NCBI GenBank assembly: GCA_959347345.1
Contig: OY365738.1
Location: 1,240,001 to 1,304,000 of the forward strand
DNA from: an uncultured Amylibacter sp.
GTDB taxonomy: Bacteria > Pseudomonadota > Alphaproteobacteria > Rhodobacterales > Rhodobacteraceae
Reading direction: 5' to 3'
DNA: 64,000 nt
The notes below the pieces were generated by a model. It ran no database searches. It was not told where the DNA came from and saw only the letters and a program-made list of their open reading frames with translations. Both the position numbers and the translations under genes were made by a program. Positions 27,046-62,363 of this stretch are shown here, one piece after another. How positions within the stretch are numbered: the stretch's first letter is position 1; each line of letters starts with the position of its first letter.

Positions 27046-27927
27046 ATGACACAAACCCCCGCCGAAACCCAAATCATCCAGAATATAGCCGATATATCCG
27101 CGCCTTATACCGCCGTATTGTGCGACCTGTGGGGCTGTTTGCACGATGGTATCCGCCCGTTTGACGCGGGGCTGACCGCATTGCAAACCCTTTGCACGCA
27201 AGGCAAATCGGTGTGGTTGCTGACCAATTCACCGCGTCCCAGCCCCGATGTTATCCGCCAGTTGGATGCGATAGGCGTTGGGCGCGACCTCTACCATGGT
27301 GTGATTTCCAGTGGTGATGCGGCGATAGCGGAGGTTGCGAATGGCACTTATGGCTCGCACATATACCACCTTGGGCCGGCGCGGGATTTGCCGTTCTTTG
27401 ATACGCTGGATGTCACGCTCACCACGCAAGACCACGCGGACGCGATAATCTGCACGGGGCTGATAAACGATGAAACCGAAACGCCCGATGATTACGCGAA
27501 CGCCCTGCTGGACGCGAAAAACCGAAACCTGCCGATGCTCTGCGCCAACCCTGATATAATAGTTGATCGGGGTGATAAACGGATATTCTGCGCGGGCGCA
27601 CTGGCGGCCGCCTATGATAAAATCGGTGGGCGGGTGGATTACGCGGGCAAACCGCACGCGCCGATTTACCGCCTTGCGCTGGCTAAATTAACCGCGATAC
27701 ACCAAAACATAACGCCCGCAGACATCCTGTGTATAGGCGATGGTATCCATACTGACATAGCGGGGGCAACCGCCCAATCCATGCCATCCGTGTTTATCAC
27801 GGGCGGGCTGGCGGCACGGCAAACCGAAACGCGGGCAGACCCACAATCCAACCCAAACCCCACGAAACTAGGCGAATTCCTGATAAACCAACCGCGTCCG
27901 ACCTACGCCATTGGTCGCTTGCGCTAG
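27046..27927 (+). CDS. TIGR01459-type HAD hydrolase
   Basis: A 293-residue HAD-IIA (NagD-like) phosphatase. Motif I is VLCDLWGCLHDG, motif II lies in LLTNSPRP, and motif IV is LCIGDGIHTDIAGA. The first Asp of the usual DxD is present, followed by LWG as in this subfamily. The natural substrate is unknown. In alphaproteobacteria it often precedes ribF, as here, so an FMN- or nucleotide-related substrate can be suspected. No Shine-Dalgarno sequence is apparent before the ATG. Confidence 0.85.
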   Translation: MTQTPAETQIIQNIADISAPYTAVLCDLWGCLHDGIRPFDAGLTALQTLCTQGKSVWLLTNSPRPSPDVIRQLDAIGVGRDLYHGVISSGDAAIAEVANGTYGSHIYHLGPARDLPFFDTLDVTLTTQDHADAIICTGLINDETETPDDYANALLDAKNRNLPMLCANPDIIVDRGDKRIFCAGALAAAYDKIGGRVDYAGKPHAPIYRLALAKLTAIHQNITPADILCIGDGIHTDIAGATAQSMPSVFITGGLAARQTETRADPQSNPNPTKLGEFLINQPRPTYAIGRLR

Positions 27928-27937
27928 AAAGACCGCC

Positions 27938-28903
27938 ATGCAAATCATCCGCGATTATCAATTCCTAGACACGGAGCATAAGGGCAGCACCGTTGCCATC
28001 GGTAATTTTGATGGAGTCCATCTGGGGCATCGCCATGTGATAGCGATTGCGCGGGATATTGCCAAAGCCTCGGATACTCCGCTGGGGGTGCTGACGTTTG
28101 AACCGCACCCGCGGGCGTATTTTAACCCGCAAACCCCGCCGTTTCGCCTGATGTCGGCGCAGGCGAAAGCCAGCCAGTTGGATTTTTACGGCATAGACCG
28201 CCTGTATCAGTTGAACTTTAACGCGCCTTTGTCAAACCTGACCGCGCGGGAGTTTGCGGGGGCGGTTATCACCGATGGGCTGGGGTTGGCCCATGTTGTG
28301 GTCGGCGAAGATTTCTGTTTTGGCAAGGGGCGGTCGGGCTCGGCGGATGATTTGCAACGATTGGGGGCGGAGTTTGGCTTTGGCGTGACGATAGCCCCGC
28401 TTTTGCGCGATGATGCCAGCACCCAGATTTTTTCTTCCACGGCGATTCGCGGGGCGTTGTCGGAGGGGCGGCCAGATGCGGCCGCAAAGATGTTGGGGCA
28501 TTGGTATCGTATTGAAAATAAGGTTATTCACGGGGATCAACGCGGGCGGACGTTGGGCTATCCGACGGCGAATTTATCGATTGACGGGTTGCATCCGCCG
28601 CGCTTTGGCGTTTATGCGTGTTTGGTGGATGTGCTGGACGGGGCGCATCGGGGGCGGTATCGCGCGGTTGCGTCCATTGGCGAGCGTCCTACCTTTGGCG
28701 GGCGGGTGGCGAATTTGGAGGTGTTTTTGTTTGATTTCAGCGCGGATATTTATGGAGCGCGGTTGTCGGTGGCTCTGGTGGATTATCAACGGGCAGAGCA
28801 AAAGTTTGACTCGGCGGAGGCTTTGATAGCCCAAATGGACGAGGATTCAACCCGCGCCCGTGCGACCTTGGCGGGGCTTGCCACAGGAAGCCCCACAAGC
28901 TAG
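27938..28903 (+). CDS. ribF: RibF, bifunctional riboflavin kinase / FAD synthetase
   Basis: A 321-residue enzyme making FMN and FAD. The N-terminal FAD synthetase has VAIGNFDGVHLGHRHV and IRGALSEG; the C-terminal flavokinase has RTLGYPTANL and ASIGERPTFGG. An in-frame upstream start at 27911 overlaps the HAD gene, but MQIIRDYQFL at 27938 is the family-like N-terminus. A strong terminator follows. Confidence 0.94.
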   Translation: MQIIRDYQFLDTEHKGSTVAIGNFDGVHLGHRHVIAIARDIAKASDTPLGVLTFEPHPRAYFNPQTPPFRLMSAQAKASQLDFYGIDRLYQLNFNAPLSNLTAREFAGAVITDGLGLAHVVVGEDFCFGKGRSGSADDLQRLGAEFGFGVTIAPLLRDDASTQIFSSTAIRGALSEGRPDAAAKMLGHWYRIENKVIHGDQRGRTLGYPTANLSIDGLHPPRFGVYACLVDVLDGAHRGRYRAVASIGERPTFGGRVANLEVFLFDFSADIYGARLSVALVDYQRAEQKFDSAEALIAQMDEDSTRARATLAGLATGSPTS

Positions 28904-28984: not shown

Positions 28985-31900
28985 TTATTGGTTGCCCGCA
29001 GGAGGTGTAACAATAAACCCGCCAGAATAACCATTGGCGGTGTTAACATTGTCATTACTGATAAACACACCAACCGCGGCTTTATGCCCGATAATACCGC
29101 GTAGCGTTCCGGCTTCTGCGGTCGCCAACCCATTAATAGACGCACCTATACTAATCGCGGCACCAGCAGCAGGATTAGGAGTCGCAGTGTAATCCCTAAT
29201 GCTCGTATCACCACTAATAATACCAGCACCCGTATAACTACCATTTATGACAAGGTGATTACCTGTTACACCCTCGCTGGCAGAACCACCGTTTGTACCA
29301 GCCGCTATCGGTATAGCACCTTGTATGGTTCGGGCAGAATAATTAACCCGCATCTTAAAGCCAGTACGTGCGGTGGCATTGGCAGCAGTCCCCTGCCCAA
29401 TCCAGTCAATAGTCCCAGTCCAAGTTGCATTGCTCACTGCCCTATCAAACAGGGGCGCGCCAACATCAAGGGTATTGTTGATAATCCCAGCATAGAACCG
29501 CGTAGCACCCGCATCTACAGGGGTAATTGGAGTAACTCCCTCGGTTATTACCATATCATAATGCGAGGAATCAACCACAGGAATTACAGTGCCATCAGCT
29601 AACGTAACCTCGTTACCAAGATCATCACTATCCACTAGCTCCTGTATCACCTCTGTCCTCCCTATCACCTCTGGTGTCCGCGCAGAAAAGAATCTTATAG
29701 ACGGTAGAGCACCGTCAATCGTAAGAATCCTACCTGCTTCTACTTGCTCCAAATTCGCATTATTTGAGAAATCTGGCGCACTTGCAGTCAAACCACTCAA
29801 GAATTGATTTGTCGTACCATCCAAAGCCGAAAATGCAGACGTGGTTGTAGCAGTGTTCCATTGCGTATACGTCTGTGCGACAGGGCAACCCGTCGCAGGA
29901 CGAACATTGGTCGGTACATTACATAAAAGTCTCGCCGCATTATAACCCCCGCATTCATACTGATTACTAGAAGCCCCCGCACATTCGGTAAGACGGTCGC
30001 GCCGACGGTCATCATAGCGACTGAATGCCCGACAAACTGCCGTGAATGGGTCTTTGGTTTTATCAGCGCCACTTGTATTCGATTCGTCCGTGCCGTAACA
30101 AAGCCATCCAATCGCGTCTGAATCGCTTGTATCTGCAACATAACATAGGTTAATAATCTTTTCTGAACCCGTCCCTTTATCCTTTGATACCGTAACTAGA
30201 TTCGTTTGATCTCCTAAAAGAATCTCAGTCTCGTCTAGTCCGCTACAATAATCTCTCCGTGCCCGTCGAACCGCGTATAGAGCGGAATCACCACCAAACG
30301 TAGCGCTACAGGCACTTGCGAACGGATTTTGCAGACAAATCGCGTATAGACCAGAGGCAGAAGATGTCCTACAAATATTCTGTTCTTCATTTATACGGTT
30401 TTCTTGAACGCAATACGCAATACGATCTGTCCTTATCGCCGTTCTATACGCGTCTGCCCTGTCATTAGCAGTACTCCCCGAACCGCTAGCCTGAGCAAAT
30501 TGAGTCCGTCGTGCCGCTTGGGTACAAGAATCAGGGTCTTCCAAACATGCCAAATGGCCAACAGCAGTATCGCATCTGCCAGTGGTATCAGCAACAATCC
30601 CCGCACCAGTCTTACACAAGTCAAGAACCGCAGTTTTCTGACCATTATAGCCAGCATCATCACAAGTAGTCGGCGTGAACGGATTGTTCGCACAATTAAT
30701 CACAGGCGTTCGGCAGGTTGCACCACCAGTTACAGTATCACCGTCTGATTGATTAACACACAACGCGGCCAAAGCCGTTTTTGTAGCAGTATCTGCGTCT
30801 GCGCCAATACAAAGCTCCGTATTAAACGGATTTGAAAACTCCGTTAGTGTTGAGCCACCTTTACAAACATCAGCTAGAACAGTACCTTTACTGCAATTGG
30901 CTTTATTATAATCCGTGGAAGAATCCCGACACGCTCTCCTAAAGTTATCCTGTGCGGGGTCAAACGCATTATAGTTGTTACAATTAAAAGTGCTAAATCC
31001 AGGCACGGTCGTTACCGCGGCATTAAAGGGATTATCAGTCGCAGCAAAACCCGCACATGCACTATTTGCTGCTGTTACTGACGCACCTGCTCGCCCATCC
31101 TCAGTCGCACACAGTCCAGTAGTAATGCCAAGAGTTAGGCAATTGTCCACAGCCCTGCTTCTAGCACCTCCAATACCAGTAAAATCCGTAGTCTGCGTAC
31201 AAATCGGTGCAAACGGACGGGCGTTTTCGCCACTATCGGTACAAATTTCACCTCTAACAGCATCTGCGGGACACAAAGCCTCCTGATTACCACCCGTTAA
31301 AGCCGTATCACCAGCACAACCAGTAGCATACCGCGCCAAACGCCCGATGTTAAAAGGCTCATTCACGTCTGCGTAATCATCACAAGCCGCATTGCGTGGG
31401 TCGCCATTCGTTGCGTCAGGGCTACAAGTGGTATAAACCAACTCCGCCCCTGTTCTTCTGCAACGAGGGTTTTGCCCGCGGACGGTGGGATCCGTGATTA
31501 GAGCACATTCTGTAACAACCGCGAGCCGTGTGGCAAGGGTAGGTATTGATTGCTCAGCACAAATAGCTGCCCAAGGATTGGTTTGCGCACCATTGGTGGT
31601 TGTGCAAATCGCTACCTGTGTATTCATGCACTCCGTACCCGCAGTCGTCCTATCATTAGATGCAACCTCTGCACAAAGAGCATACTGCGCTATACGGTCG
31701 GCGTTATATGTGCCTCCTTCATCCGTCAAACAATCAAACACCCCAGCACCCGTGGCACTCGCAAACAGGTTATCACCCGTACAGAAATTTTCAACAGCAC
31801 CAAGGCAATATCCGGCAGTGCTATCGCCTCTAATAGTTGCACTTGACGTACCCAAACCAGAACAATAGGTCGTCCGCAATGTCCGCGCGGCTGTCAACGC

Positions 31901-34900
31901 ATCATTATCATCATCCCCGCCCAACATTGCATTCGTACAAGTTGAACCAAACGGATTGGCAACACACGTATCGGTAGTAGCAAACATTTGACATTTTTCC
32001 AGACTGATATTCGCCGTACCAGTTGTGCTTCCCGTGCCACAATAGGTTATCGTGGGGTTAACAAACGCGGCACTGACGCTGGTAGCATCGCACGCCACGG
32101 TACTAGTCCTAGTAGTAATCCCACTTGTCGCAAAGGGGTTAGCAATACAGTCAATAATTTCTTGCGTACATGCGTCTGTCGCAGTTGTTACGCCAACACA
32201 GCTATCAACCAATGTTTTTCGTTGCACGTCAAAAGTGTTACTGGGAGCAAAACAGTAATCAGAGTTAAAGGGGTTTGATCCCACATCCGTGCCTTCCCCA
32301 CAAACATTAGCCACAAGAATTGGGCAACGGGCAGCATCCCCTGCTCCGCCTTCAACGCAAGTAGTATCCTCCAAAGTTGTACGAACAACTGAATAATCAG
32401 CATTACCCGCACAATTAAGCCCAGCCACAGCATCATCCGCCCCAGGCGCAGTTTCAGCAACAGCCGCGCGAATCAGGTAAGGATTTGCCAAACACGCAAC
32501 AATATTAGCATTGCTGGTGCAAAGCGCATTTGTAGGTGTATCACTCTCACAATCGGCAATAACAACTTGACGCACGCTGGAATAGGCCGCTTCATCAACG
32601 CAATCCGCGTCATAGGCATCGGCATTACACGCGATTATAGATGCGGTACAAGTCGCACCACCAGCCAAAGCCGTTGCAGATGAATCTGCTTTAACCAATG
32701 CATCACAAGCCTGAACAAAAGCCGCCCGCTCTGTGGCAAAATCCGCATCATCAAGGGTACAAAGACCTGAAAACGGGTCGCCATTCGCGCCTTGACTCGC
32801 GCAAATTTCATTTTCAACACCTACGGCAGCATCGAGATTACAAAGCGTGGCATCAAAATCTTCCCCTGCCGCCTCACGGCAATACGCCACGCGTTTTGTG
32901 GTTATTCTGGTTCTAACGTCAGCATCTATCGCGTCGGTAGTCGCAGTCGTACAAGCCGTGCTAAACGGATTTTCAAGACACCCAGCGGCAACAGTCGTAT
33001 TAAAGGTGGAATCCGTACACGAATCCTGCGTTTTACTGTTATCACCCACGCCACAATAATCAATTTGCGCATCGGCATTGTCATCACCACAAACTCCTGC
33101 AAACGGGTTCAGACGGTCGCCAATCGCAACCACACCGTCATACGAGCAAATTTCACTACGGATAGTGGTTCCAGTTCCACCCGAGCCCTCACCCGCGCAG
33201 AGACCGCCAGTACCGCCCTCATCCCCTGCACGCGAACCTTCACAGAAAGCATAACGGGCAGCCCGTGCATTCCTGTACCTATGCCCACTTGTAGAAGACA
33301 TGCATGCCGTATCAAACGGGTTTCTAAGACAAGTTTGGTAAGTTGTGTCGCCGGTGTTTATGTTTGTGCAACTTGGCAGCTTGGCGTTACCATTGCTCAT
33401 ACAAACTTCCATATGGTCGGCACGGAATTCATCAAACAAATCGCTGGCACAAGCCGTATGAAACGGATCGTCCAGACAACTGCCGACTGTTACGGCAGGA
33501 ATGGCGGGCGTTCCCGCAACCGTATCCTCAGCAACCCCTGCGACAATAACTCTACCTGTGCAACTGGCATCATTCTTATTAGTGGTAAGAAAGGCAACAC
33601 ACTCGCCAATCGCGTTACCCCGCGCGGTGGCAATACCCGTGCGTGAATCGCAATTCGTATCAAAAATCGTGCGGGCGTCATCGGCACAATAGGCAGCCTG
33701 CCGTTCGACAGTGTTAAACAATTCGGCATCACACCCAGCGGTGAAAGGGTTGTACCCACAGGCACGAGCCGTTGGCGCGTCTATGTCAGATGAAACTGCT
33801 GTATCACAACTAGGAGAATCGGGGAGGGCCAGGCAATATCCTGCAGCACTCTGCCGTGCGGTCGCTATATTTGGATAGTCTGCCTCGGTACATTCTGAAT
33901 TAAATGCAGTTCCCAAACCTCCACCACTGGGGGGGGCACAGATAGCATCCCTTGCGGTGTCATAGTTACTATCCGTGGCGCAACCTGTATCAAATGGTCT
34001 AGCCATACACCTTGCGCCGTCATAGGAGGCATTATCAAGGCAATCGGCATAAAATGGGTTAGCGGTACACCTTGCGCCCGCAAACGCATCAAGCGTCTCA
34101 CAACCCGAAGCGAACGGGTCATCAGTACAAGTGGCAACAGTGACTAGGGTCACGTCATTGGTCGCATCTGCGGCGATAATCACCTGCTCGCATGCCGTAC
34201 CTGTTCTGGCATCTGAGGAAACACCAGCACAGGTGCTAACGCTCGCCATTCTTGTACTATCAAAAGCACCATTGGTACAATCGGCACTAAACGGGGCATC
34301 AAGACAACCTTGAACTGTTACGGGCATGTCAGAGGCATCTTGCCCAACCACAGTGCCGCAAGCATCAGTTTTCGTTTGTCCACCGCCATCCGTGCAAAGA
34401 AACCGAACGGTATCCCTCCTACCATCAAACAGACCATCTGCACAAGCGGTAAGGTAAGGGTTAGCAAAACAGCTAGCAAGAGTTACGGCGGGTACTAAAG
34501 CCGCGCCACCCGGAACCATAGGAATCTCCGCTTTAATCTCTACATCCGTACAAAGGGTAGAGGACGTTTTATCACCTACCACGCCGTCACATGCATTAAA
34601 TAAACTTGTTCTTGCACTATCAAACGCACCATCCGCACAATCCGCAAGGAAAGGGTTAGCAACACAATGAGCAAGATTTACGGCTGGTACTAAAGCCGCG
34701 CCACCCGGAACCGCAGGAATCTCCGCTTTAATCTCTACACCCATACAAAGGGGAGAGGTATCTCTGTCAACTTCTGCCACACCCTCACATGCAGCAATAG
34801 CACGGTCGCGGTTATCGGCATAAATATTACCATCAGCTAAACAATCGCTGGCAAATGGATTGGCAACACAGGTTGTCTGTGTCGCACAACGCGTATCGCT

Positions 34901-37258
34901 TGCATTGGCGGGTTCGTCACAAAATAACGCCCGCACACCTGTGTCAGCGGCATCAATATTAGCGACATCTTCACAATACGCATGGAAAGGGTCTGCACCC
35001 GCCGCTGTGGCAGAGCAAAATTGCGATGTTTTAAGCTCGGGGGTACAAAGTGCTGTATCAGGCGTATCACCGAAACAAAGTGCGTTCAGATTGGCTTGCG
35101 CCCGTGCCACGGCATCGGAATCACCCAAAGACATCTCACAATCAATCGTGCCAGCAACGGTAGCCGTGAAAGGATTATCCAAACAGGTTCTTACATTACC
35201 AGCAGGTATATTCGTACAAACCGTGTTCGTTCTAAAATTATCACTATCCGCAGTCGTACAAAGTTCACGTATATTCATTTGCGCTGTTGTCGCTTGCTCC
35301 ATGCCCAATTCTGCAACACAGGTTGCGTCAAAAGGATTGGCTAGACATGTTGTTACTTCCACATCACCCAATATCGCACAACGGGTGTTTGAACCATCGG
35401 CATCCGCGCCTGTGCAAACCTCAATCAAATTATTTTGCGCTGTTGTCAAACTATCGCCCAATTCTGTATCACAACCCGTCCCAAAAGGATTGGCTAGGCA
35501 ATCCTTTAATGCGACCGTTAATGCGACCGTTTCTTCGGTATCCTTCGCTATCGTACAAAGCGTGTTCGCACCATCAGCATCAGCACCCGTGCAAAGCGCA
35601 ATCAAATTGGCTCGCGCCCGTGTCACGGCTTCCGTACCACCCAGAACTGTTTCACAATTAGTAGTAGTGGCACCCAGAAGCATCGTACCAACGGTGAAAG
35701 GATTATTCAAACAGGTTTTTACATTTATATTCCCATTATTATCAGTACCATCACTAGCAATCCTCGTACAAATTGAGTTCGTTGCAAAGTTATCACTATC
35801 CGCAGCCGTACAAAGTGCAAGCACATTGCTTTGTGCTGTCATCAAATTTGTTGCACCCAAAGCGGTATCACAATCGACGACAAAAGGATCGCGAAGACAA
35901 TCCGTTAATACGACCTCCTCCGCTATCGTACACCGCGGGTTTGTGCCATCCGCACCATCGCCCGTACAAGCCGTAATCAAAGTGCTTTGCACGTCCGCCA
36001 CAGTGCCACCCAAAGCCGTGAACAACATCCCACAATCAACCGAGCCACCAGTCGTGAAAGGATTTGCTAGACACGTAATCTCATCCGCAGTAAACCCGCC
36101 ATTGTTATTACCATCAGCATCACAAAAACTGTCTTTGTCATCAACGACACCATTCGTACAAATTCCAAACAGAGCGGTGCGCGCCCCAGCAAAGGTGTCG
36201 ACTCCCCGACAATCCGTAGAAAACGGCGCACTGGAACAGCTTGCAACGGTTACAGGTGTTGTCATACACGTTGGGTCATTTGGATTTGTCGCAAGCTCGC
36301 CAGCCACCCCATCACATAGGGCAGCATCGCCCGTACGTGCCATTTCAAAAGCTGTCACGGTACAATCAGCACCATTATTCTCATCATTAAAACAGTTCGT
36401 GGCAAAATCTGCCCGCACACTATCAAAAGTATTGCCCGTAGCCATGCAAAGGTCGTCAAACGGATTGGCACCCGCACCACTATCCACACAAACCTGCGCC
36501 AAAGCAGACCCGCAAACCCCTACATCCGCATCATCGCCCAGACAATAAGCAAGACGGCTCGTCTGTGCATCATCCCTAAAGCTGGCAAATTCGCGATACA
36601 TTGTTGACGTTAAGCATGAGTCTGCCCAAGGATTATCAAAACAAGTGAAACCCGCCGTACGCGCCGCCACACAATCAGCATTCTTCGTAGAATCCGCAAG
36701 TGTTGCACTATCGACACACTTCTCAATAATTGCGTCCCGCGCGGGGTTCAATCTGCCACAAAGCAAATCAAACGGGTTGGCATCATCACCGCAGTTTTGC
36801 ACAACCGCACTGGTGCATAAAGTCAAATCATTCCTGTTTGAACCCTCACGGCAAAGGTTAAGACGAGTGGTTTCCAGCACAGCAAGCGTGACACCTGAAC
36901 CTTGCCTTGCAGTGTCATACGCCGTCGCATCACACGCCGTTGTACCCGAAGTAGAATCAAGTGGGTCACTCAAACAATATCGCACCGCATCAGGCACAAT
37001 AGCACAGTTTTCAGTGGCTTTGGTATCAATACTGGTAGCACAATCGGTGATCGCCGTTGCCCGCGCTGTTGCATCCGCAGGCCTGGTACAGGTTGGACCA
37101 AACGGATTGGCATCACAAGCATTCGTCCCTGGCCCCGCAGGTGTGGTTGGCGCAGCAGCCCCGCCCCCGCCACAAGCGGCCAGAATAAATAAACCCGCGA
37201 ATAATGCGATAAGCACCGCGCGAGTAAGGATTAAGTTTGTTTTTAAAGTGTTAAGCAT
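28985..37258 (-). CDS. Giant Cys-rich NPF-repeat lipoprotein (about 2757 residues)
   Basis: A very large exported lipoprotein. The signal ends in the lipobox FILAACGGGG; after the lipidated Cys a Gly/Ala/Pro/Thr linker follows, with no Asp at +2, so outer-membrane sorting is likely. The body is a long series of irregular units of about 40-60 residues, each built around C-x2-NPF-x2-8-C, then a helix-like stretch ending in LC or YC, then another Cys. At least 20 NPF cores can be counted, plus several DPF variants. The last 250 residues lack this pattern and form a domain shared with the next two proteins (FYAGIINN ... WTGTIDW ... GGFIVTPP). I do not recognise a characterised family. A surface adhesin or binding stalk is an inference from size, lipidation and repeats. 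Confidence 0.8.
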   Translation of the reverse strand: MLNTLKTNLILTRAVLIALFAGLFILAACGGGGAAAPTTPAGPGTNACDANPFGPTCTRPADATARATAITDCATSIDTKATENCAIVPDAVRYCLSDPLDSTSGTTACDATAYDTARQGSGVTLAVLETTRLNLCREGSNRNDLTLCTSAVVQNCGDDANPFDLLCGRLNPARDAIIEKCVDSATLADSTKNADCVAARTAGFTCFDNPWADSCLTSTMYREFASFRDDAQTSRLAYCLGDDADVGVCGSALAQVCVDSGAGANPFDDLCMATGNTFDSVRADFATNCFNDENNGADCTVTAFEMARTGDAALCDGVAGELATNPNDPTCMTTPVTVASCSSAPFSTDCRGVDTFAGARTALFGICTNGVVDDKDSFCDADGNNNGGFTADEITCLANPFTTGGSVDCGMLFTALGGTVADVQSTLITACTGDGADGTNPRCTIAEEVVLTDCLRDPFVVDCDTALGATNLMTAQSNVLALCTAADSDNFATNSICTRIASDGTDNNGNINVKTCLNNPFTVGTMLLGATTTNCETVLGGTEAVTRARANLIALCTGADADGANTLCTIAKDTEETVALTVALKDCLANPFGTGCDTELGDSLTTAQNNLIEVCTGADADGSNTRCAILGDVEVTTCLANPFDATCVAELGMEQATTAQMNIRELCTTADSDNFRTNTVCTNIPAGNVRTCLDNPFTATVAGTIDCEMSLGDSDAVARAQANLNALCFGDTPDTALCTPELKTSQFCSATAAGADPFHAYCEDVANIDAADTGVRALFCDEPANASDTRCATQTTCVANPFASDCLADGNIYADNRDRAIAACEGVAEVDRDTSPLCMGVEIKAEIPAVPGGAALVPAVNLAHCVANPFLADCADGAFDSARTSLFNACDGVVGDKTSSTLCTDVEIKAEIPMVPGGAALVPAVTLASCFANPYLTACADGLFDGRRDTVRFLCTDGGGQTKTDACGTVVGQDASDMPVTVQGCLDAPFSADCTNGAFDSTRMASVSTCAGVSSDARTGTACEQVIIAADATNDVTLVTVATCTDDPFASGCETLDAFAGARCTANPFYADCLDNASYDGARCMARPFDTGCATDSNYDTARDAICAPPSGGGLGTAFNSECTEADYPNIATARQSAAGYCLALPDSPSCDTAVSSDIDAPTARACGYNPFTAGCDAELFNTVERQAAYCADDARTIFDTNCDSRTGIATARGNAIGECVAFLTTNKNDASCTGRVIVAGVAEDTVAGTPAIPAVTVGSCLDDPFHTACASDLFDEFRADHMEVCMSNGNAKLPSCTNINTGDTTYQTCLRNPFDTACMSSTSGHRYRNARAARYAFCEGSRAGDEGGTGGLCAGEGSGGTGTTIRSEICSYDGVVAIGDRLNPFAGVCGDDNADAQIDYCGVGDNSKTQDSCTDSTFNTTVAAGCLENPFSTACTTATTDAIDADVRTRITTKRVAYCREAAGEDFDATLCNLDAAVGVENEICASQGANGDPFSGLCTLDDADFATERAAFVQACDALVKADSSATALAGGATCTASIIACNADAYDADCVDEAAYSSVRQVVIADCESDTPTNALCTSNANIVACLANPYLIRAAVAETAPGADDAVAGLNCAGNADYSVVRTTLEDTTCVEGGAGDAARCPILVANVCGEGTDVGSNPFNSDYCFAPSNTFDVQRKTLVDSCVGVTTATDACTQEIIDCIANPFATSGITTRTSTVACDATSVSAAFVNPTITYCGTGSTTGTANISLEKCQMFATTDTCVANPFGSTCTNAMLGGDDDNDALTAARTLRTTYCSGLGTSSATIRGDSTAGYCLGAVENFCTGDNLFASATGAGVFDCLTDEGGTYNADRIAQYALCAEVASNDRTTAGTECMNTQVAICTTTNGAQTNPWAAICAEQSIPTLATRLAVVTECALITDPTVRGQNPRCRRTGAELVYTTCSPDATNGDPRNAACDDYADVNEPFNIGRLARYATGCAGDTALTGGNQEALCPADAVRGEICTDSGENARPFAPICTQTTDFTGIGGARSRAVDNCLTLGITTGLCATEDGRAGASVTAANSACAGFAATDNPFNAAVTTVPGFSTFNCNNYNAFDPAQDNFRRACRDSSTDYNKANCSKGTVLADVCKGGSTLTEFSNPFNTELCIGADADTATKTALAALCVNQSDGDTVTGGATCRTPVINCANNPFTPTTCDDAGYNGQKTAVLDLCKTGAGIVADTTGRCDTAVGHLACLEDPDSCTQAARRTQFAQASGSGSTANDRADAYRTAIRTDRIAYCVQENRINEEQNICRTSSASGLYAICLQNPFASACSATFGGDSALYAVRRARRDYCSGLDETEILLGDQTNLVTVSKDKGTGSEKIINLCYVADTSDSDAIGWLCYGTDESNTSGADKTKDPFTAVCRAFSRYDDRRRDRLTECAGASSNQYECGGYNAARLLCNVPTNVRPATGCPVAQTYTQWNTATTTSAFSALDGTTNQFLSGLTASAPDFSNNANLEQVEAGRILTIDGALPSIRFFSARTPEVIGRTEVIQELVDSDDLGNEVTLADGTVIPVVDSSHYDMVITEGVTPITPVDAGATRFYAGIINNTLDVGAPLFDRAVSNATWTGTIDWIGQGTAANATARTGFKMRVNYSARTIQGAIPIAAGTNGGSASEGVTGNHLVINGSYTGAGIISGDTSIRDYTATPNPAAGAAISIGASINGLATAEAGTLRGIIGHKAAVGVFISNDNVNTANGYSGGFIVTPPAGNQ

Positions 37259-37390
37259 TGAAGCCTCCATTAGATTAGTTTTGTTTTTGGTTGAGGTTAT
37301 AGGGTTCAGCATTGATGCCTCCGTTAGATTAGCCGTTAGGTTAGTTGTGTTTTTAACAGGTTTTAAAGAGTGTAGCATTGATGCCTCCGT
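37256..37390 (-). promoter_or_regulatory. Three tandem ribosome-binding-site/start units before the giant lipoprotein
   Basis: GGAGG followed by a CTTCA/CATCA spacer and ATG-CT occurs three times in frame, with starts at 37378, 37312 and 37258. The surrounding bases (ATTAGATT...GGAGGC.TCAATGCT) are repeated too. I chose 37258 because it gives a normal-length signal peptide; the upstream starts would add 20-40 polar residues. Confidence 0.7.
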
Positions 37391-37667
37391 TAATTTTTCT
37401 GCACTTTCTTACGCAGAATTCGTGTATTTCGTGATGGTCGCAAAGACCGTTCCAGCTCGTTTCGCAGGTTTTAGGGGGTTTTGTCAATAGGCTTTTTTAA
37501 AAAAAGCATAAATTTTGAAAAGATTTTATGAAAAAGTGATATTTTTTCCACTTTTTTAGCGTTTTTTGGATTTTTGGGGGATTTTGTGAATATTTTTGCG
37601 GGGATTGTTATACACTATACCATACGCGGTATCATACGCGATGTTATTCGCTTTAGTATTCGCACTA

Positions 37668-40370
37668 TTACTCGGCTGGTTTTGTCGCGATAAATCCACC
37701 TGCATAGCCACTCGTCTCTGACTCATTGCTATGAAACGCGCCCAACGCACCATCCTGCCCGATAATACCCGTCAATATGCCGTTTGTGGCGCGACCACCC
37801 GCGGGGGTGCCTTCGACTCCGCCCGTGAATGCGCCATAATTTACCGTTCCCTCTATAACGCCATTGGCGGTAAAAGTGCCATCCAGCAAGAAGTGGGTGG
37901 TACCCGAAACGGGGACAAAGGCGTTGATAACCCGTGTATTACCTCCATCGGCATAGATAACGTGCAACGTCATTGGCAACACTGCGCTAGGGGTTGCGCT
38001 TGAACCGATAACCGCTCGCAAATCACCCGTCCAAGTGCCAGCTTGCGTGCCATCATTCAAAGGTGCGCCCAGATTTGCCCCATCAAACAGCCCTGCATAA
38101 AAGCGGTCGTTCGCGGTGAAAAAGCCCACGCCGTTTGGGGAATCATCCCCTATCATTAATAAGGTGGCGGTTGTAGTTGTGCCTGTGGTGTCAATCCCAT
38201 TTGCCGTCCCCAATAAGAATTGGTTTTTTCGGGTGGAGGTGGTGTCCAAAGCAACCAGCGTGTCGCTATCATCGCGAAATTTCTTCGCCCAAGTGGCGGC
38301 ATTTGGACGGGTGAGTATGTCGTCCGTGCAATCCGCCGTACCAGCCGTTGTCGCGTCAGTGCATGCGGCAACACGTGCGCCGTCAAAATAGGCAGGTGCG
38401 CAAGGATCACCATTATAGTTTGCAAAGGGGGCGCGATTACACGCATTGATAACGCTGTCTTGTGACCCCCCACATCCCTCTGTCCGCGTCCCTGCACGGC
38501 ATTCATTAACTAATCTTGTCTGACTTTTTAACCGCGTACTGTCAAAATGGGACGCACCGCAAGCCTCATCATTAGGTATAAGATTATTATCATCAGGATT
38601 GCTACCCGGAACTAAAAACCGCACAAACGGGTTATCGAGGCAACTGTTTATAAAATTGCTCGTGCAACCTGCTGTCCTAGCACCGCTCTCACAGTCTTCA
38701 ACGATTGTCTGTCTTGCGCTATCATATTTAGAAACGGTACACATCACCACGGGAGTCTTGCGGAATGGATTGCTCTTACAAGCAATCCCTTCAGACAAAT
38801 AGCTGGCGCAAAGGTTGTCTTGCTCTGCCGTACCAGCCGTTATCTGCGTCTCGCAATGATTGGTGCGAAATAGCTGGGCATTTGTACCTTGCTCCGCCGT
38901 GCCAAAGAAAGTCGTGCAAGACGCGTGATACGGGTTTTGCATGCAACTCTGATTCGTCGCCCCAAGGCAGAGCGGGTCTTCCGTTCTGTCACCAACAATA
39001 CAATATCGTGCGCGAGTCTGTTGGGCGATGAGCTGTCCCGCCCCAAGACCCTCTGCGCAAGTACCACCGAAAGGGTCTGTGACGCATGCTTCTTTCGCAA
39101 CCGCCCCCCCGCATATATCTGGATATCTGTCTGCAATAAAGGCATTCACGCAAAGAACCGCACGGCTTTGTTGGGCGGTTTTAACATTTGCGTCACTGCC
39201 CAGATTAAATTCAGAGGCGCAATCCACGCTATCCGTGAAAGGGTCGCCAAAACAAGGATTATTGGCAAGTTCAACCCCACACGCGTTTGCTTGTGCCGCG
39301 GTGCTGGCGTCAATACATAGTTCAACCCGTATCAACCGCGCGGGGGCAAAGGCAGGAATATCGCAATTAGGATTGCCAAACGGGGATTCATTGCAAAAAT
39401 TAACGACAGAGGTACAACCCTCTGCCAAGGTGGGTGTTTCATCATTAAGGCAAGTTGTTGCGATTTTTAACCGTTCATCCGCATAGGGGGTTTCGCCCGT
39501 GGCTGGATCATCTTTACAAAACACATCAAAAACACCTGACGGATTGGTCTCGTCCTCGCACACATTCGTAATTGTAGATGCACATAAAACAGCGTTTGAT
39601 TCGATTTCGATATTTGGAACACCTGCATCATTTGTATCTCGGCAATAATTAATCCGCGCCTGTCTGGTGTTTTCCACCAAGGATACCATTTTTAATTCTG
39701 TTACTTCTTCGCCATTTTCATCTAAAACCACATCGTTGTTTGCATCTCTCTTTGTCACTTGACCACTGATTGTTTCTTGCAAGGCCGTCTGCTGTTCGCA
39801 AGCCTCATTATACGGGTCTTTTAAGCAACTAAACACACCCGTTTGGGCTGCCAGTGCGCTCGCACATTCGGGGGAATTGGTGTTTTCAAAATCACTGCAC
39901 CAAACAAAGGCATCACGGCATCGCGCTGCCCGCGGATTGGCAGTGCATTCGGCAACAACGGGTTCAATCAATGCTTGGCGTTCGGGGGCATATTTTGCTA
40001 ATGCTGCTTTCCGTGCGGCCTCTTGCGCTGCACGGCGAGCGATGGATGCATCACGGTCGGCGATTTCTTCGGGGGTTAAGTCTGTGCTTTCGTCGTCGGT
40101 TATTACCGTTGCTGCTCCAGCCAACAATTCTTCGGTTATCTCAGGATAGCATTTTGTTTGAAACGGATTTATATTGCAGGGAAGATTGCCCGTACGCGCA
40201 GCATTTATCAAAGAACCCAAGCCACAGCCCGTAAGGATAAACATAGCGGACATCACCACGAATAGCACTGTTGTTAAACGTGCCACAGATTGGCGGGCGG
40301 GAATAATAGTCCCCCCTGTAGCCCCACCCCTTGCAAAGAGTGTTTGAAGTTTTGAGTTTATATTACGCAT
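37668..40370 (-). CDS. Large Cys-rich repeat lipoprotein (900 residues)
   Basis: A relative of the giant lipoprotein. The signal peptide TVLFVVMSAMFILTGCGLG carries a lipobox (LTGC). After it come an Asp/Glu/Ala-rich helical stretch (about residues 85-130) and then Cys-rich units with CxxNPF, CxxSPF and DPY-type cores. The C-terminus repeats the shared domain: NQFLLG, RFYAGLFDGANLGAPL, GTWTGDLRAV, HFLLDGTFTANGVIEGTV, GIIGQDGALGAF and GYAGGFIATKP. It is the middle of three related genes on this strand, with its own promoter-like sequence upstream. Function unknown. Confidence 0.8.
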   Translation of the reverse strand: MRNINSKLQTLFARGGATGGTIIPARQSVARLTTVLFVVMSAMFILTGCGLGSLINAARTGNLPCNINPFQTKCYPEITEELLAGAATVITDDESTDLTPEEIADRDASIARRAAQEAARKAALAKYAPERQALIEPVVAECTANPRAARCRDAFVWCSDFENTNSPECASALAAQTGVFSCLKDPYNEACEQQTALQETISGQVTKRDANNDVVLDENGEEVTELKMVSLVENTRQARINYCRDTNDAGVPNIEIESNAVLCASTITNVCEDETNPSGVFDVFCKDDPATGETPYADERLKIATTCLNDETPTLAEGCTSVVNFCNESPFGNPNCDIPAFAPARLIRVELCIDASTAAQANACGVELANNPCFGDPFTDSVDCASEFNLGSDANVKTAQQSRAVLCVNAFIADRYPDICGGAVAKEACVTDPFGGTCAEGLGAGQLIAQQTRARYCIVGDRTEDPLCLGATNQSCMQNPYHASCTTFFGTAEQGTNAQLFRTNHCETQITAGTAEQDNLCASYLSEGIACKSNPFRKTPVVMCTVSKYDSARQTIVEDCESGARTAGCTSNFINSCLDNPFVRFLVPGSNPDDNNLIPNDEACGASHFDSTRLKSQTRLVNECRAGTRTEGCGGSQDSVINACNRAPFANYNGDPCAPAYFDGARVAACTDATTAGTADCTDDILTRPNAATWAKKFRDDSDTLVALDTTSTRKNQFLLGTANGIDTTGTTTTATLLMIGDDSPNGVGFFTANDRFYAGLFDGANLGAPLNDGTQAGTWTGDLRAVIGSSATPSAVLPMTLHVIYADGGNTRVINAFVPVSGTTHFLLDGTFTANGVIEGTVNYGAFTGGVEGTPAGGRATNGILTGIIGQDGALGAFHSNESETSGYAGGFIATKPAE

Positions 40371-40428
40371 CGTATCGTTCCTTAGTTTTTGAGAGATGTT
40401 TGGTTAATAAACATGAAAGTATCAAATC

Positions 40429-40457
40429 TTTTTACCTTATGTTTGCATGTGCGTCAA
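40429..40457 (-). promoter_or_regulatory. Possible promoter of the 900-residue lipoprotein gene
   Basis: On the minus strand TTGACG (40457-40452) and TAAAAA (40434-40429) are 17 bp apart, within a very A+T-rich 147-bp gap. Confidence 0.5.
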
Positions 40458-40517
40458 GCGTTTTTTTACCAAGTTTTAATTTTTTCACATATAAATTAAT
40501 ATAAATTAAAACTGTGA

Positions 40518-43500
40518 TTAACCGCCCGAAGGTTGCCCAGAGGACGAACCCTGTTGTTGCGTTGGCTCTTGCGTTGGCGTTTCCACCACAGAGTCTGACT
40601 CCACTGGTGGAGTCACCACAAACCCGCCAGCATAGCCCACATCCGCCGCATTATCACTGATAAACGCGCCAACCGCTCCGATTTCACCAATCAGCCCTTT
40701 AACAACCCCCGCACTGACCTCCGTAGGCGTGGCGGTCGCATCATTATTGGCAAAGATACCCAGTTTAACCGTACCATCAATCACCCCTTTTTCATTAAAA
40801 GTGCCTTCCAGCAAAAAATGCTCATAGTTATCGGTAACCTCATCACCAAGCCGTCTGACAACCCCCCTAATCGCGGTTTGCTGAAAATCAATCCGTAAAT
40901 CAAAATCTTTCACGGCGGAAGTGGCAGAGCCAGACGCGCCAGCGTCGCTAATCACCCATTGGATACTGCCAGTCCAAGTCGCATGGACATCATCGCCTTG
41001 GGTAAAGGCAGGCAAGGGTTTGCCCAGGGTCGTGCCAGAGAATATCCCCGCATAAAACCGCGTTGTTTCATGCGGTTGTCCCGCGAAAAACGCCACACCA
41101 TATTCGGAAATACTTTGAAGATTTTCTGTATAATACCGCGCTGGAGTCAGGCTTAGATGGGTGATGGTCGGGTCGTTCCCCTCTTTATCATTGACATCGC
41201 CAAAATCCAAACCGTGCTCAAGCCCGATAAGGAATTGGTTGGAGTCCGATACATCCCCATTGGCGGCAACGCTTGCCAGCTCGGTTGTGAAACTTTGCTC
41301 AAAAGTCGCGGCCGTGGGGCGTGCCAAAACAAACGCACAGTCAGAGTCATCCACATTGGCTCTAATCGCGCAGTTTCTAATAACACTATCGCGGGCATCG
41401 GCATAGCTGTTATTATGCTGATGGCAAACGGCGGCAAACGGGTTGGCATGGTCGCCCGTATCCGTGCAAATCATCGGCGTTGCCCCCACGCAAAGTTCAA
41501 AATTCGCACTATCGCCAAGGCAATAGGTCAAACGCGCATTGCGGGTAAGAGTCACCAATTCGGCACTGCCCAGTTCTACCGCGCAGTCAGTGTTTGGCAC
41601 GGTTGAAAACGGGTCATCAAAGCAAGTGTAAGTATCCACGTAATGTGCGCAAAATTGCGTTGCTATCGCATTACCCTGATTGCAATAATTGGCAATTGTA
41701 CCCAGAAAGGCAGGATTATCCCTGCATATAAGATTGCTTTGAGTCGGATCTTCATTGCAGGACTTAATCAAGGCAGTACACCCCGCACCCTCAGGCGTAA
41801 CGCGGCATGTATTAACCAGAGCCAACCGCTCTGCCTTATAGCGTGAATCGGTAAGGCAATCAAAGGATTCATCCATCAAATTATCGGCGCAGAAGTCGGC
41901 AATCGCATTGATGCAAGCCATATCCTCACGCACGCTCGCCCCACCAGTGGCAAGGGTTTGGCAATGGCTTATCCGTGCGGATTTGGCATCGGCAAACCCC
42001 TGTGTGCCACCCAGTTGGACCTCGCAATCCGTGCCATTCCCCGTCATAAACGGGTCGGACAAACAGACATAATCCATAACCGTCACTTCGCAATCGGTTG
42101 AGGTGAAATTATCTGCCATAGCACAATGGGCTATACGGGCAACATCATAGGCATCATCGGCACTACAACCATATTGGGCAGCAAACAGATTATCCGTGCA
42201 AAACGATTTCACCGCACCAGAGCAGAGCGAATCGGCGCGGGCAATACGCGAATTCGTGTTTGCGTTTGCGTTTTCATTGGCGTTTTCATTAGCATTTTCA
42301 TCCGCACCCAAACCGCTACAATAATCGTGTCGCTTTGTGCGGGTCGCCATAACCGCATCGGCAGAGCCTAACTCGGCATCGCAATTACCATCCATAAAGG
42401 GGTTTTCAAAACACGCGGTGTTTTCGGCATACGTGCTACACACCCGCAGGGTTTGGTTTTCATTGCAAAAAGTCGTCCGTGCAAGATTAAACGCGTCTCT
42501 ATTGCAAGTTTCACTGCCAAACGGGGCGGTATTACAGGTATTCACCTCTGGTGTGCAGGTTTTATCCTTTGGGTCGGCAAGGCAGGTATGGGCTAAATCC
42601 AACCGTGCCATGTCATAATCCGTATCGGTCAAACAGCCAAAGGTCGTTGATAGGGGGTCAGCCGTACAATGGGCAAATATCGCGGTTAAACACCGCGAAT
42701 CCAACCCCGCATCCGCGCCATTAACACCCAGCGTTTCACAATGGTCTATCCGTGCTTGTTGGGCGGCTTTTTGCGCCGTTACATCGCTATAAAACCCCTG
42801 ACACTCGCCGAACGGGTTATCAATGCAATCGCTGGCGGTATCCGCACCAATACATAAGGTCGCGTGGGTATAGAGGTTATTGCCCTCGGTACAAAACGCG
42901 GCGCGTTCATGCTGGGCATCCGTCAGGGCTTGGGCACTGCCAAGGTGCTCGGCAGCCGAGCAATCCACATCATCGGTAAAGGGATTGGTAACGCAGGTAT
43001 ATCTAGCGGCGACATCACGGCAATTCCTTAACCCGATGGTTTCGGCGGTGTTGCAATAGGTTATCCTTGCGCCCTCAAACGCGGGAATACCGCACAGAGT
43101 CGCACGAAACGGGTTTGAATTACAGGCATTAATAGCAACGGTGCAACCATCGCCTTGCGCATCCAAACGGCAGTTATTGGCCATATCCAGCCGAGCTTGC
43201 CCATAATCGGCACTGCAAATGGTATCAAACGGGCTGCCCTCCCCTTCGCACAAATGAACGATAGTCCGCGCACAAAGCGCGTCATTATCGGCGTTTGTCC
43301 CATCACGGCAGAAATTCACGCGGTGCCCGATAGCATGGTCGCGAAATTTGGCGAATTTTTCGTCCTTATCACAGCCGTCATTGAACGGGTCTTGAATACA
43401 AGGATTGACGGCAAAGGCGGGCGTGCATTCGTCTTGCGCTATTTTATCCTCTTGCACGCAATAGCCGACTATCGGCGCACATTGTGCGGTATTCACGTTT

Positions 43501-43760
43501 GGCGGTTGCGAGCAGACATCAATCACGGCTTTGCGGGCCCCGGCGTAAGTATCGCCGCAATCTTCACCAAACGGATTGCTTAGGCAGGGGGTTAGTGCGG
43601 TTTTCAATGCGTTTTGGATGTTGTTGGCTTGGCTGTCTATACTGGCGGCAAGCCCCCCGCCCCCGCAAGCGGTAAGGATGAAGAGCGCGGATAAGATGAT
43701 GGCTGATGTTGCCCGTCCGAGTAGTGGGGTTTTTGTGGGCTGGTTTGTTCTCGTGTTCAT
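40518..43760 (-). CDS. Large Cys-rich NPF-repeat lipoprotein (1080 residues)
   Basis: Third member of the lipoprotein group. The signal peptide ends SALFILTACGGGG (lipobox LTAC). Cys-rich units with CLSNPF, CNSNPF, CVTNPF, CIDNPF and DPF cores follow. An ENAN low-complexity tract lies near residue 500. The C-terminus has the shared domain: NQFLIGLEHGLDFG, RFYAGIFSGTTLGKPL, ATWTGSIQWV, HFLLEGTFNEKGVIDGTV, GLIGEIGAVGAFIS and GYAGGFVVTPP, then a short Thr/Gln/Ser-rich tail. AAGGAGA precedes the ATG at good spacing. Probably surface-exposed; role unknown. Confidence 0.8.
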   Translation of the reverse strand: MNTRTNQPTKTPLLGRATSAIILSALFILTACGGGGLAASIDSQANNIQNALKTALTPCLSNPFGEDCGDTYAGARKAVIDVCSQPPNVNTAQCAPIVGYCVQEDKIAQDECTPAFAVNPCIQDPFNDGCDKDEKFAKFRDHAIGHRVNFCRDGTNADNDALCARTIVHLCEGEGSPFDTICSADYGQARLDMANNCRLDAQGDGCTVAINACNSNPFRATLCGIPAFEGARITYCNTAETIGLRNCRDVAARYTCVTNPFTDDVDCSAAEHLGSAQALTDAQHERAAFCTEGNNLYTHATLCIGADTASDCIDNPFGECQGFYSDVTAQKAAQQARIDHCETLGVNGADAGLDSRCLTAIFAHCTADPLSTTFGCLTDTDYDMARLDLAHTCLADPKDKTCTPEVNTCNTAPFGSETCNRDAFNLARTTFCNENQTLRVCSTYAENTACFENPFMDGNCDAELGSADAVMATRTKRHDYCSGLGADENANENANENANANTNSRIARADSLCSGAVKSFCTDNLFAAQYGCSADDAYDVARIAHCAMADNFTSTDCEVTVMDYVCLSDPFMTGNGTDCEVQLGGTQGFADAKSARISHCQTLATGGASVREDMACINAIADFCADNLMDESFDCLTDSRYKAERLALVNTCRVTPEGAGCTALIKSCNEDPTQSNLICRDNPAFLGTIANYCNQGNAIATQFCAHYVDTYTCFDDPFSTVPNTDCAVELGSAELVTLTRNARLTYCLGDSANFELCVGATPMICTDTGDHANPFAAVCHQHNNSYADARDSVIRNCAIRANVDDSDCAFVLARPTAATFEQSFTTELASVAANGDVSDSNQFLIGLEHGLDFGDVNDKEGNDPTITHLSLTPARYYTENLQSISEYGVAFFAGQPHETTRFYAGIFSGTTLGKPLPAFTQGDDVHATWTGSIQWVISDAGASGSATSAVKDFDLRIDFQQTAIRGVVRRLGDEVTDNYEHFLLEGTFNEKGVIDGTVKLGIFANNDATATPTEVSAGVVKGLIGEIGAVGAFISDNAADVGYAGGFVVTPPVESDSVVETPTQEPTQQQGSSSGQPSGG

Positions 43761-44081: not shown

Positions 44082-45359
44082 TTGCTAAATAACGATTCGA
44101 TAAAAAACCGCACTATCTTTTGCCACGATAATTTGGAGATTTTACGTGGGATAGATTCTGACTGCGTGGATTTGATTTATCTTGACCCGCCGTTTAATAA
44201 GAAAAAGACCTTCACCGCCCCGATTGGTAGCAATGCCGAGGGCGCGTCCTTCAGCGATATATTCCGTGAAGAAGATGTGAAAGACGACTGGCTTTTGGAT
44301 ATTAAAGAAGACCATTATTTTATCCACGATTTATTATCCACCGTGAAAACGATAGAGGGGCGAGCGTCCTACAATTTCTGCTACCTTGCTTATATGGCGA
44401 TTCGCCTGCTGGAGTGCCATAGGATTTTGAAAGAAACGGGCAGTCTGTATTTGCATTGCGACCCGACCATGTCGCATTATTTGAAACTGCTGATGGACTG
44501 TATTTTTGGCGAAATCAACTTCCGCAATGAAATTATCTGGTGCTATCACGGGCCAGGCTCGCCCAAAATGCGCCAGTTTAATCGGAAAAGCGATAGTATC
44601 TTTTGGTACTCTAAAAGCAAGGTTTGGACGTTCAATGGCGATGATGTTCGTGTGCCGTTCAAAGACCCGAATCAAAGCCTGCGGCGGGCTATGGCGACCG
44701 ATGGTACGTTTTCGGATGAAGAGGTCAAAGAATATCGTGAAAAGGGTAAAATCCCTGAAAATTGGTGGGAAATCCGCATCGCGGCGCGGAGCAAAACCGA
44801 ATACACGGGTTATCCCACGCAGAAGCCACGCGCTTTATTAGAGCGGATTATTAAGGCAAGCAGTAATGCGGGTGATGTCGTGCTTGATCCGTTTTGTGGC
44901 TGTGCGACGACTTGCGTTGCGGCGGAAAACCTAGGTCGGCAATGGATTGGTGTGGATGTGTCCATAAAAGCGTTTGAGCTGATTAAAGAGCGGATGAAAA
45001 AAGAAGTGGAACGCGTGGATGAGTTGATTAAAGAAAAGGTGGATTTCCAAACCAGCCCACCAAAGCGTACGGATACAGGGAAGGAAAAACGACTGGAAAA
45101 ATATGTTTATATCATATCAAACCCGCAATATAAGAATTATTTTAAGGTCGGCATAGCGTCTGACCCAAAACGCCGTTTGAGTTCTTACCAAACCTCTGAT
45201 CCGAAACGCGGGTATGTGCTGGAATATAAATTTCTAACGCCCAATTTTCGCAGGATTGAATCCTATATCCATGACCTTTATAAAAGCCCGCATGAGTGGG
45301 TGTTTGAAACCGATATGCAAAAGATTGTTAAAGAGATAGAGGGATTTAATAATGATTAA
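44082..45359 (+). CDS. DNA methyltransferase fused to a GIY-YIG (T5orf172-like) nuclease domain, copy 1
   Basis: A 425-residue fusion starting at TTG, 7 bp after AGGGG. The methyltransferase has the catalytic motif LDPPF (residues 34-38) before the SAM motif VLDPFCGCATTCVAA (267-281), the beta-class order of adenine-N6 or cytosine-N4 enzymes, with a variable block at about 154-242 in between. Residues about 340-420 form a second domain: YVYIIS, FKVGIAS, an Arg pair at 364-365, IESYIHDLY with a candidate catalytic Glu, and HEWV. This matches T5orf172-type GIY-YIG nucleases. One chain could therefore methylate and cut. No separate restriction gene is adjacent. A paralog lies at 62364. Confidence 0.85.
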   Translation: MLNNDSIKNRTIFCHDNLEILRGIDSDCVDLIYLDPPFNKKKTFTAPIGSNAEGASFSDIFREEDVKDDWLLDIKEDHYFIHDLLSTVKTIEGRASYNFCYLAYMAIRLLECHRILKETGSLYLHCDPTMSHYLKLLMDCIFGEINFRNEIIWCYHGPGSPKMRQFNRKSDSIFWYSKSKVWTFNGDDVRVPFKDPNQSLRRAMATDGTFSDEEVKEYREKGKIPENWWEIRIAARSKTEYTGYPTQKPRALLERIIKASSNAGDVVLDPFCGCATTCVAAENLGRQWIGVDVSIKAFELIKERMKKEVERVDELIKEKVDFQTSPPKRTDTGKEKRLEKYVYIISNPQYKNYFKVGIASDPKRRLSSYQTSDPKRGYVLEYKFLTPNFRRIESYIHDLYKSPHEWVFETDMQKIVKEIEGFNND

Positions 45360-47954: not shown

Positions 47955-48002
47955 TCATTCATCGTTAATCGTTAATCATTCATCGTTAATCGTTAATCAC
48001 TA
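47955..48002. repeat. Right heptamer array of repeat element D
   Basis: ATCGTTA and ATCATTC units in inverted orientation. The end overlaps the stop of the isomerase gene, whose C-terminus reads ASSD. Confidence 0.82.
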
Positions 48003-48592
48003 GAAGCCAGCCTCTTCTCCACAAAATCCAGCCTATCCTGCCCCCAAAACGCATCCTCACCTATCCAATAAAACGGCACACCGAACACGCCCCGCGTCAC
48101 AGCCTCGGCGGTATTGGCGGCTAACGTATCCCCATAATTATTAGCATCATCAGGATCAGCCAAATCACCAGAAAACCCGCTTGCCACCAGAGCTTCGCGC
48201 ACCACAGCCTCCTCCGCTATATCCTTCTCTTCCGCCCAAACTGCCCGCAATAAGGCATGGACAAACGCGCCCGTATCACCAGACCCGTCAGACTGCGCCG
48301 CCACAATCGCACGACACGCCATTCCAGCATCGGTAGGCCAATACGCGGGTTTCAAATTCAAAGGCAACCCAGTATGCTCCGCCCACCGCGCCAATTCCTG
48401 CCCGCGATACGCCATTCGCGATGGATGCCGTTTGGCAGGTCGCACGCCCCCAGTTTCATCAAACAATTCCATTAATAACACAGGTTTATACACCACTCGC
48501 GCACCATATTTCTCCGCCATAGCCTCCAACCTAGCCCCAGCCAAATAGCAATAAGGCGACAGTGGAAACACATAATAATCAATATCGGTCAT
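47993..48592 (-). CDS. DsbA-fold 2-hydroxychromene-2-carboxylate isomerase-like protein
   Basis: A 199-residue thioredoxin-fold (kappa-GST/DsbA family) protein. The glutathione-site region reads FPLSPYCYLAGARLEAM, and GVFGVPFYWI is the cis-proline loop. FWGQDRLDFVEKRL is the usual C-terminus. HCCA isomerases act in naphthalene breakdown, but most homologs have unknown glutathione-linked roles, so the substrate is open. The 3' end runs into heptamer repeats. Confidence 0.83.
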   Translation of the reverse strand: MTDIDYYVFPLSPYCYLAGARLEAMAEKYGARVVYKPVLLMELFDETGGVRPAKRHPSRMAYRGQELARWAEHTGLPLNLKPAYWPTDAGMACRAIVAAQSDGSGDTGAFVHALLRAVWAEEKDIAEEAVVREALVASGFSGDLADPDDANNYGDTLAANTAEAVTRGVFGVPFYWIGEDAFWGQDRLDFVEKRLASSD

Positions 48593-62311: not shown

Positions 62312-62340
62312 TTTACACCTGTTACTATATTTGCTATCAC
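62312..62340 (+). promoter_or_regulatory. Promoter-like block of methyltransferase/GIY-YIG gene 2
   Basis: TTTACA at 62312-62317 and TATCAC at 62335-62340 with a 17-bp spacer, homologous to the block before copy 1 but with a poorer -10 (TATGAT in copy 1). Confidence 0.6.
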
Positions 62341-62363
62341 AAATCCAAACAAAGGGGCAGGTC

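Follow-up and report, generated by a model that had tools for sequence, protein, structure and literature searches.

What protein architecture could account for three adjacent genes whose products are dominated by regularly recurring cysteines? The question is raised by genes C, B and A, a minus-strand row of which gene C is transcribed first, in a stretch of 64,000 nucleotides (hereafter the window) from a contig of an uncultured Amylibacter species (OY365738.1, positions 1,240,001 to 1,304,000). We consider it probable that they encode outer-membrane lipoproteins of the TbpB/hemophilin surface kind, in which a disulfide-stapled helical stalk carries a TbpB-like tip. This view draws on a four-cysteine repeat, on the conservation and even number of its cysteines, and on a C-terminal domain of known fold shared by the three proteins. 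The features discussed below are as follows:

Gene C: 40518..43760, minus strand, 1080 amino acids, 63 cysteines
Gene B: 37668..40370, minus strand, 900 amino acids, 43 cysteines
Gene A: 28985..37378, minus strand, 2797 amino acids from the first ATG (2757 from the third in-frame ATG), 169 cysteines
Lipobox cysteine of gene C: 43665..43667, minus strand, residue 32, ILTAC
Lipobox cysteine of gene B: 40224..40226, minus strand, residue 49, ILTGC
Lipobox cysteine of gene A: 37172..37174, minus strand, residue 69, ILAAC
Cysteine-repeat region of gene C: 41337..43586, minus strand, residues 59-808, 62 cysteines
Cysteine-repeat region of gene B: 38328..40178, minus strand, residues 65-681, 42 cysteines, mainly helical in models
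Cysteine-repeat region of gene A: 29885..37117, minus strand, residues 88-2498, 168 cysteines, the equivalent of 42 four-cysteine units
C-terminal handle-barrel domain of gene C: 40605..41318, minus strand, residues 815-1052, predicted by homology to B
C-terminal handle-barrel domain of gene B: 37677..38318, minus strand, residues 685-898, hemophilin/TbpB fold match
C-terminal handle-barrel domain of gene A: 28988..29866, minus strand, residues 2505-2797, predicted by homology to B

A first-pass annotation had described the row as three lipoprotein genes, and its gene positions and the lengths of 900 and 1080 residues are reproduced here. Its figure of about 2757 residues for gene A corresponds to the third in-frame ATG rather than the first. 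The start of this gene (37213-37392) carries three imperfect copies of a stretch, with spacings of 54 and 66 nucleotides, each combining a GGAGGC-type site with an ATG, and thus offers three possible in-frame starts. As read from sequence alone, a hydrophobic stretch precedes the lipobox in each protein, and the lipid anchor proposed earlier is accordingly retained as a prediction.

The cysteine repeat

If the unit is defined in a relaxed form, as a cysteine followed by [ND][PL][FYLWT] and then by three more cysteines, A has 25 instances, B has 4 and C has 10, as against means of 0.175, 0.025 and 0.05 respectively and maxima of 2, 1 and 1 in 200 shuffles per gene. The strict core C-x2-NPF occurs 16, 3 and 5 times, and is followed by three further cysteines at unit spacing in 15, 1 and 4 instances, the NPF tripeptide as such being present 22, 3 and 6 times; the run of cysteine units in gene B mostly lacks the strict core. 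The long runs of units reported in the first-pass annotation are therefore recovered with the relaxed definition and only partly with the strict one, its figure of at least 20 cores in the largest protein was too high, and the exact motif that it gave, C-x2-NPF-x-C with a single residue before the second cysteine, is absent from A, B and C.

Four cysteines form the commonest interval between successive NPF-like cysteines (in A, 12 of 26; in B, 4 of 6; in C, 5 of 11), the remaining intervals comprising 2, 6, 8, 12, 14 or 18 cysteines, with two exceptions in A (1 and 3). Within the four-cysteine intervals the median steps are 9-11 for C1-C2, 14-21 for C2-C3, 11-14 for C3-C4 and 9-11 for C4 to the C1 of the next unit, and the corresponding full ranges are 8-19, 13-27, 9-32 and 8-27. 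In none of the three proteins do two cysteines lie within five residues of each other, although shuffled sequences average 45, 9 and 16 such pairs. This spacing excludes CxxCH, CxxC, CC and CxC, each with zero occurrences in A, B and C, and thereby also heme of the c type and the common zinc and iron-sulfur sites.

The full-length proteins matched no Pfam family, 11 repeat segments gave chance-level matches only, and the sole row returned by NCBIfam, for gene C, was far under its cut-off. Structure prediction, which had been proposed as a check on the repeat, yielded a helical model for a repeat segment, for which no match was found among solved structures. Taken together, these comparisons suggest a four-cysteine, disulfide-stapled helical unit without a counterpart in the families and structures searched. 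The earlier statement that no characterized family shows this pattern thus stands for the repeat with respect to Pfam and solved structures, but the C-terminal domain described below is of known fold. An open reading frame of 562 amino acids runs antisense to gene A (34860-36548, plus strand) and is probably a by-product of the codon make-up of its repeat.

Conservation and parity of the cysteines

Nine relatives of gene A, of 2383-2894 amino acids, were recovered (P0052-P0060), the shortest of which (P0056, 2383 amino acids) lacks an intact C-terminus. Against eight of these, with identities of 0.52-0.85 (excluding P0052, whose identity is 99% over the part searched), cysteine is the most conserved residue, with a fraction of conserved cells of 0.94, followed by tryptophan (0.77), phenylalanine (0.76) and proline (0.67), down to glutamate (0.42). 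A comparable value for cysteine, 0.96, was obtained for gene B against 11 relatives, where tryptophan reaches 1.0 but at three positions only. Across ten gene A sequences, P0052 included, 130 of the 205 columns holding any cysteine are invariant, and the variable ones represent blocks gained or lost together (one being the missing end of P0056), slides by a few residues, or pairs; such pairs were gained in the C-terminal domain of P0053, P0055 and P0060. The nine relatives of gene A and the many of gene B, together with this conservation, led us to reject the possibility that these are chance open reading frames.

The number of cysteines after the lipidated one is even in all 36 complete lipoproteins that have any, namely the three window proteins and 33 relatives, and takes 12 distinct values between 12 and 176 (160-176 in the complete gene A relatives). 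These are related sequences and not independent trials, but the many distinct even values make an origin by chance unlikely. The count leaves out five sequences without an intact C-terminus (P0016, P0036 and P0045, with odd numbers, and P0038 and P0056, with even ones), three without any cysteine after the lipidated one, and 13 without a methionine start or lipobox, among which two have odd totals, of one cysteine each. In four relatives, picked by eye, that have a signal peptide and no lipobox, the number of cysteines after residue 30 is likewise even in all. Even parity and strong cysteine conservation are what full disulfide pairing predicts, and they suggest such pairing rather than heme c or metal clusters. 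Full pairing would correspond to about 84, 21 and 31 disulfide bonds in A, B and C. The many disulfides anticipated in the first-pass annotation are in line with these observations.

The window also encodes a DsbA-fold protein (47993-48592) with no evident signal peptide and no CxxC; to judge by these features it is probably a cytoplasmic isomerase-type member and not an oxidase for the stalks.

The C-terminal handle-barrel domain

The three proteins are free of cysteine to their ends from residue 2505 in A, 695 in B and 815 in C, and here they share a domain that had been missed in the first-pass annotation. In the predicted structure of the gene B version a handle is followed by an eight-stranded beta-barrel, and the best fold matches are hemophilins, so that the barrel resembles the tip of surface proteins known to scavenge iron and heme; the modeled fold appears to be that of the Slam/type 11 surface lipoproteins. 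By analogy with these, the domain lends indirect support to the surface location that had been proposed for the stalks.

A profile built from the final ~220 residues gave 122 matching stretches in 53 sequences, comprising the three window proteins and 50 relatives (one of which, P0004, repeats gene B), with at least one in each sequence and six in two of them. The relatives thus hold between one and six barrels. Four of them (P0025, P0026, P0027 and P0031) combine 4-5 tandem barrels with no more than two cysteines, whereas others have many cysteines and one barrel, which implies that stalk and barrel vary as modules. In the former four the barrel itself can apparently take the part of the repeat.

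The TbpB_B_D family (PF01298) gave no match for A, B and C, nor for the 8 and 19 barrels tested, and profile-profile comparison by hhalign with 16 PF01298 domains, two of them under the family cut-off, reached a probability of 3-4% at best. No histidine is present in residues 685-802 of B; the C-terminal domains of A and C carry some.

Relatives and genomic context

Gene C belongs with a relative cluster of 97% identity and 27 member sequences (P0001). In six of the ten gene A clusters, that of the window included, a gene B-family cluster lies on what appears to be the same contig, as judged by the equal size of the longest contigs; one such shared contig is of 19,119 bases. A seventh gene A cluster pairs with P0039, from a group of 590-600 amino acids, and three have no partner. 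By the same reckoning from equal size, a fourth family member of 590 amino acids (P0041) apparently lies on the contig of the window, of 4,737,489 bases, and the genome in question is thus likely to contain more members of the family, P0041 being one. In a comparison of CobT, the source organism falls on a long branch (1.25) that is not firmly placed, with a best identity of 53%; by its gene content it appears to be alphaproteobacterial.

Profile searches in genomes gave zero counts for the barrel (0 of 5 and 0 of 385 genomes with profile A1; 0 of 398, 0 of 6 and 0 of 369 with profile A4) and for the repeat (0 of 398 with profile A3), in partly overlapping samples and with no positive control, so that these zeros show little. 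Comparison of gene C with genome contigs and of the barrel alignment with viral contigs likewise gave no confirmed relative. In the class of G001, 22 genomes out of 289 gave a match to PF01298 itself, 17 of them above the cut-off, as against none of 14 control genomes, which indicates that TbpB-type barrels exist in that class; the open frames around 16 of these domains contain 0-6 cysteines.

The neighbors of the row, both on the plus strand, are a DNA methylase gene (44082-45359) and ribF (27911-28903). The methylase gene looks similar to a second one at 62331-63779, about 17 kb away, and each includes a fused T5orf172 domain. Elsewhere in the window, a Sel1-repeat gene lies between the genes of two small proteins (22427-23116 and 23963-24679) that are similar to each other and have signal peptides; they end in GVTFAF and GITFAF, as in outer-membrane barrels, and have no Pfam match.

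Proposed architecture and export

The architecture that we favor, on sequence features, would begin with a lipoprotein signal peptide, and the protein would be lipidated at the lipobox cysteine and sorted to the outer membrane. The middle part would be a chain of mostly four-cysteine helical units that have C1 and C2 on either side of an NPF-like turn, and its cysteines, all probably disulfide-paired in view of their parity and conservation, would make it a stiff, protease-resistant stalk. The cysteine-free handle and eight-stranded barrel would then lie at the end distant from the lipid. They most likely provide the signal by which a Slam/type 11-like outer-membrane translocon recognizes the protein, and most likely also a ligand-binding tip. 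The relatives with more barrels and few or no cysteines suggest for the middle part the role of a variable spacer holding barrels off the membrane. Predicted type 11 cargo is taken to have a C-terminal barrel as targeting part and an N-terminal part as effector (PMC12282271); by analogy with this model, A, B and C may be read as surface lipoproteins with the lipid at the membrane and the barrel at the far end.

Export of such chains would pose a particular difficulty. Slam1 is reported to have moved unfolded TbpB only (PMC9090332), so that cargo with dozens of disulfides would have to stay reduced until outside or take another route. We tentatively propose, as a possibility short of being probable, that a new secreted four-cysteine helical repeat fold of up to ~42 units has been fused to a TbpB-like barrel in a proteobacterial lineage, and that chains with up to ~84 disulfides are exported either reduced or pre-oxidized. 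In the literature searched, from which most subscription journals are absent, neither mode was found described for cargo of Slam/type 11 systems.

A related but unlikely explanation overlaps with the stalk-and-tip architecture in anatomy and differs in which part does the work: the cysteine region would itself do the binding, over a large surface, in adhesion or in the capture of prey, and the barrel would be an export tag only. The effector role assigned to the N-terminal part of predicted type 11 cargo (PMC12282271) is consistent with this, as is the differing number of units between orthologs, evident in their 160-176 cysteines. It is disfavored by the concentration of conservation on framework residues, namely cysteine, tryptophan, phenylalanine and proline, and by the Pfam searches of the three proteins, which found no known binding module.

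It is rather improbable that these are giant lipoproteins facing the periplasm, with stalks that span it or scaffold the outer membrane to the cell wall and a barrel that binds a periplasmic partner. The periplasm is where disulfide-rich proteins usually fold, and as no outer-membrane export would be needed, oxidative folding there would be unproblematic; in addition, no translocon gene (Slam/type 11 secretion system, PF04575) was found among the 43 open reading frames scanned, out of 66 listed for the window. This location is difficult to reconcile with a C-terminal domain having the fold of exported surface lipoproteins, with the relatives whose 3-6 tandem barrels resemble surface arrays, and with a chain of ~42 helical units that might outreach the periplasm. 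Lastly, storage of metal or covalent heme by the cysteines, akin to the binding of metal or heme entertained in the first-pass annotation, might be suggested by their abundance (169, 43 and 63) and by the hemophilin fold matches, but is highly improbable and, for metal, iron-sulfur and heme-c binding by cysteine, rejected on the spacing and parity described above, while the histidine-free segment of B differs from HphA, which holds heme by two histidines (PMC8560813).

If the stalk-and-tip architecture is correct, an uncultured lineage adds giant stalks rich in disulfides to the TbpB/hemophilin class of surface lipoproteins. The architecture would also put the secretion model to a stringent test, setting the reported unfolded-only transport by Slam1 (PMC9090332) against cargo expected to contain dozens of disulfides, and how such stalks cross the outer membrane is the most useful question raised by the locus. 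Moreover, even cysteine parity may represent a cheap way to spot fully disulfide-paired giant proteins in metagenomes.

Comparison with known systems

The combination seen in the three genes, of cysteine-rich helical repeats with a barrel tip, was not found described in the literature searched. Among known cysteine-rich systems, multiheme c-type cytochromes were ruled out, there being no CxxCH in A, B or C. The twin CX9C or CHCH proteins have two CX9C pairs per helical hairpin, and hence four cysteines per unit, and the C1-C2 and C4-C1 medians of 9-11 are reminiscent of them; however, the C2-C3 steps of 13-27 depart from a spacing of two CX9C pairs, and structure and family searches of the repeat gave no CHCH match. 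The Helicobacter cysteine-rich proteins are secreted and consist of Sel1-like alpha/alpha repeats stapled by disulfides, of ~36 amino acids with two cysteines each, whereas the units of A, B and C are of ~44-54 amino acids with four cysteines and NPF-like turns; no Sel1 match was obtained for the three proteins or for the 11 repeat segments.

On the side of the tip, TbpB, LbpB and HpuA have one or two lobes, and their family PF01298 is without a match in the window proteins; to our knowledge, none of them has a disulfide-rich helical stalk. The hemophilins and HphA (PDB: 7rea, 8gm3, 8gmm, 8glo, 6om5) share 11-16% identity with the C-terminal domain of B, and their chains of 218-255 residues leave no room for a long repeat region. 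The two heme histidines of HphA, H43 and H106, are located in its clamp (PMC8560813), and as B has none in residues 685-802, its sequence does not support a tip that binds heme as HphA does. Adhesion, nutrient capture and contact with prey are candidate functions.

A similar overall plan is seen in the Pls-like predicted type 11 cargo, which are mostly lipoproteins with a long helical repeat before a C-terminal barrel, and differ in having EEARKA-type repeats (PMC12282271). The main text of PMC12282271 uses the word cysteine once and disulfide not at all, and no Slam/type 11 cargo with a cysteine-rich repeat was described in the literature searched. On the whole, the fold of the tip is already known, and the proposed stalk is new.
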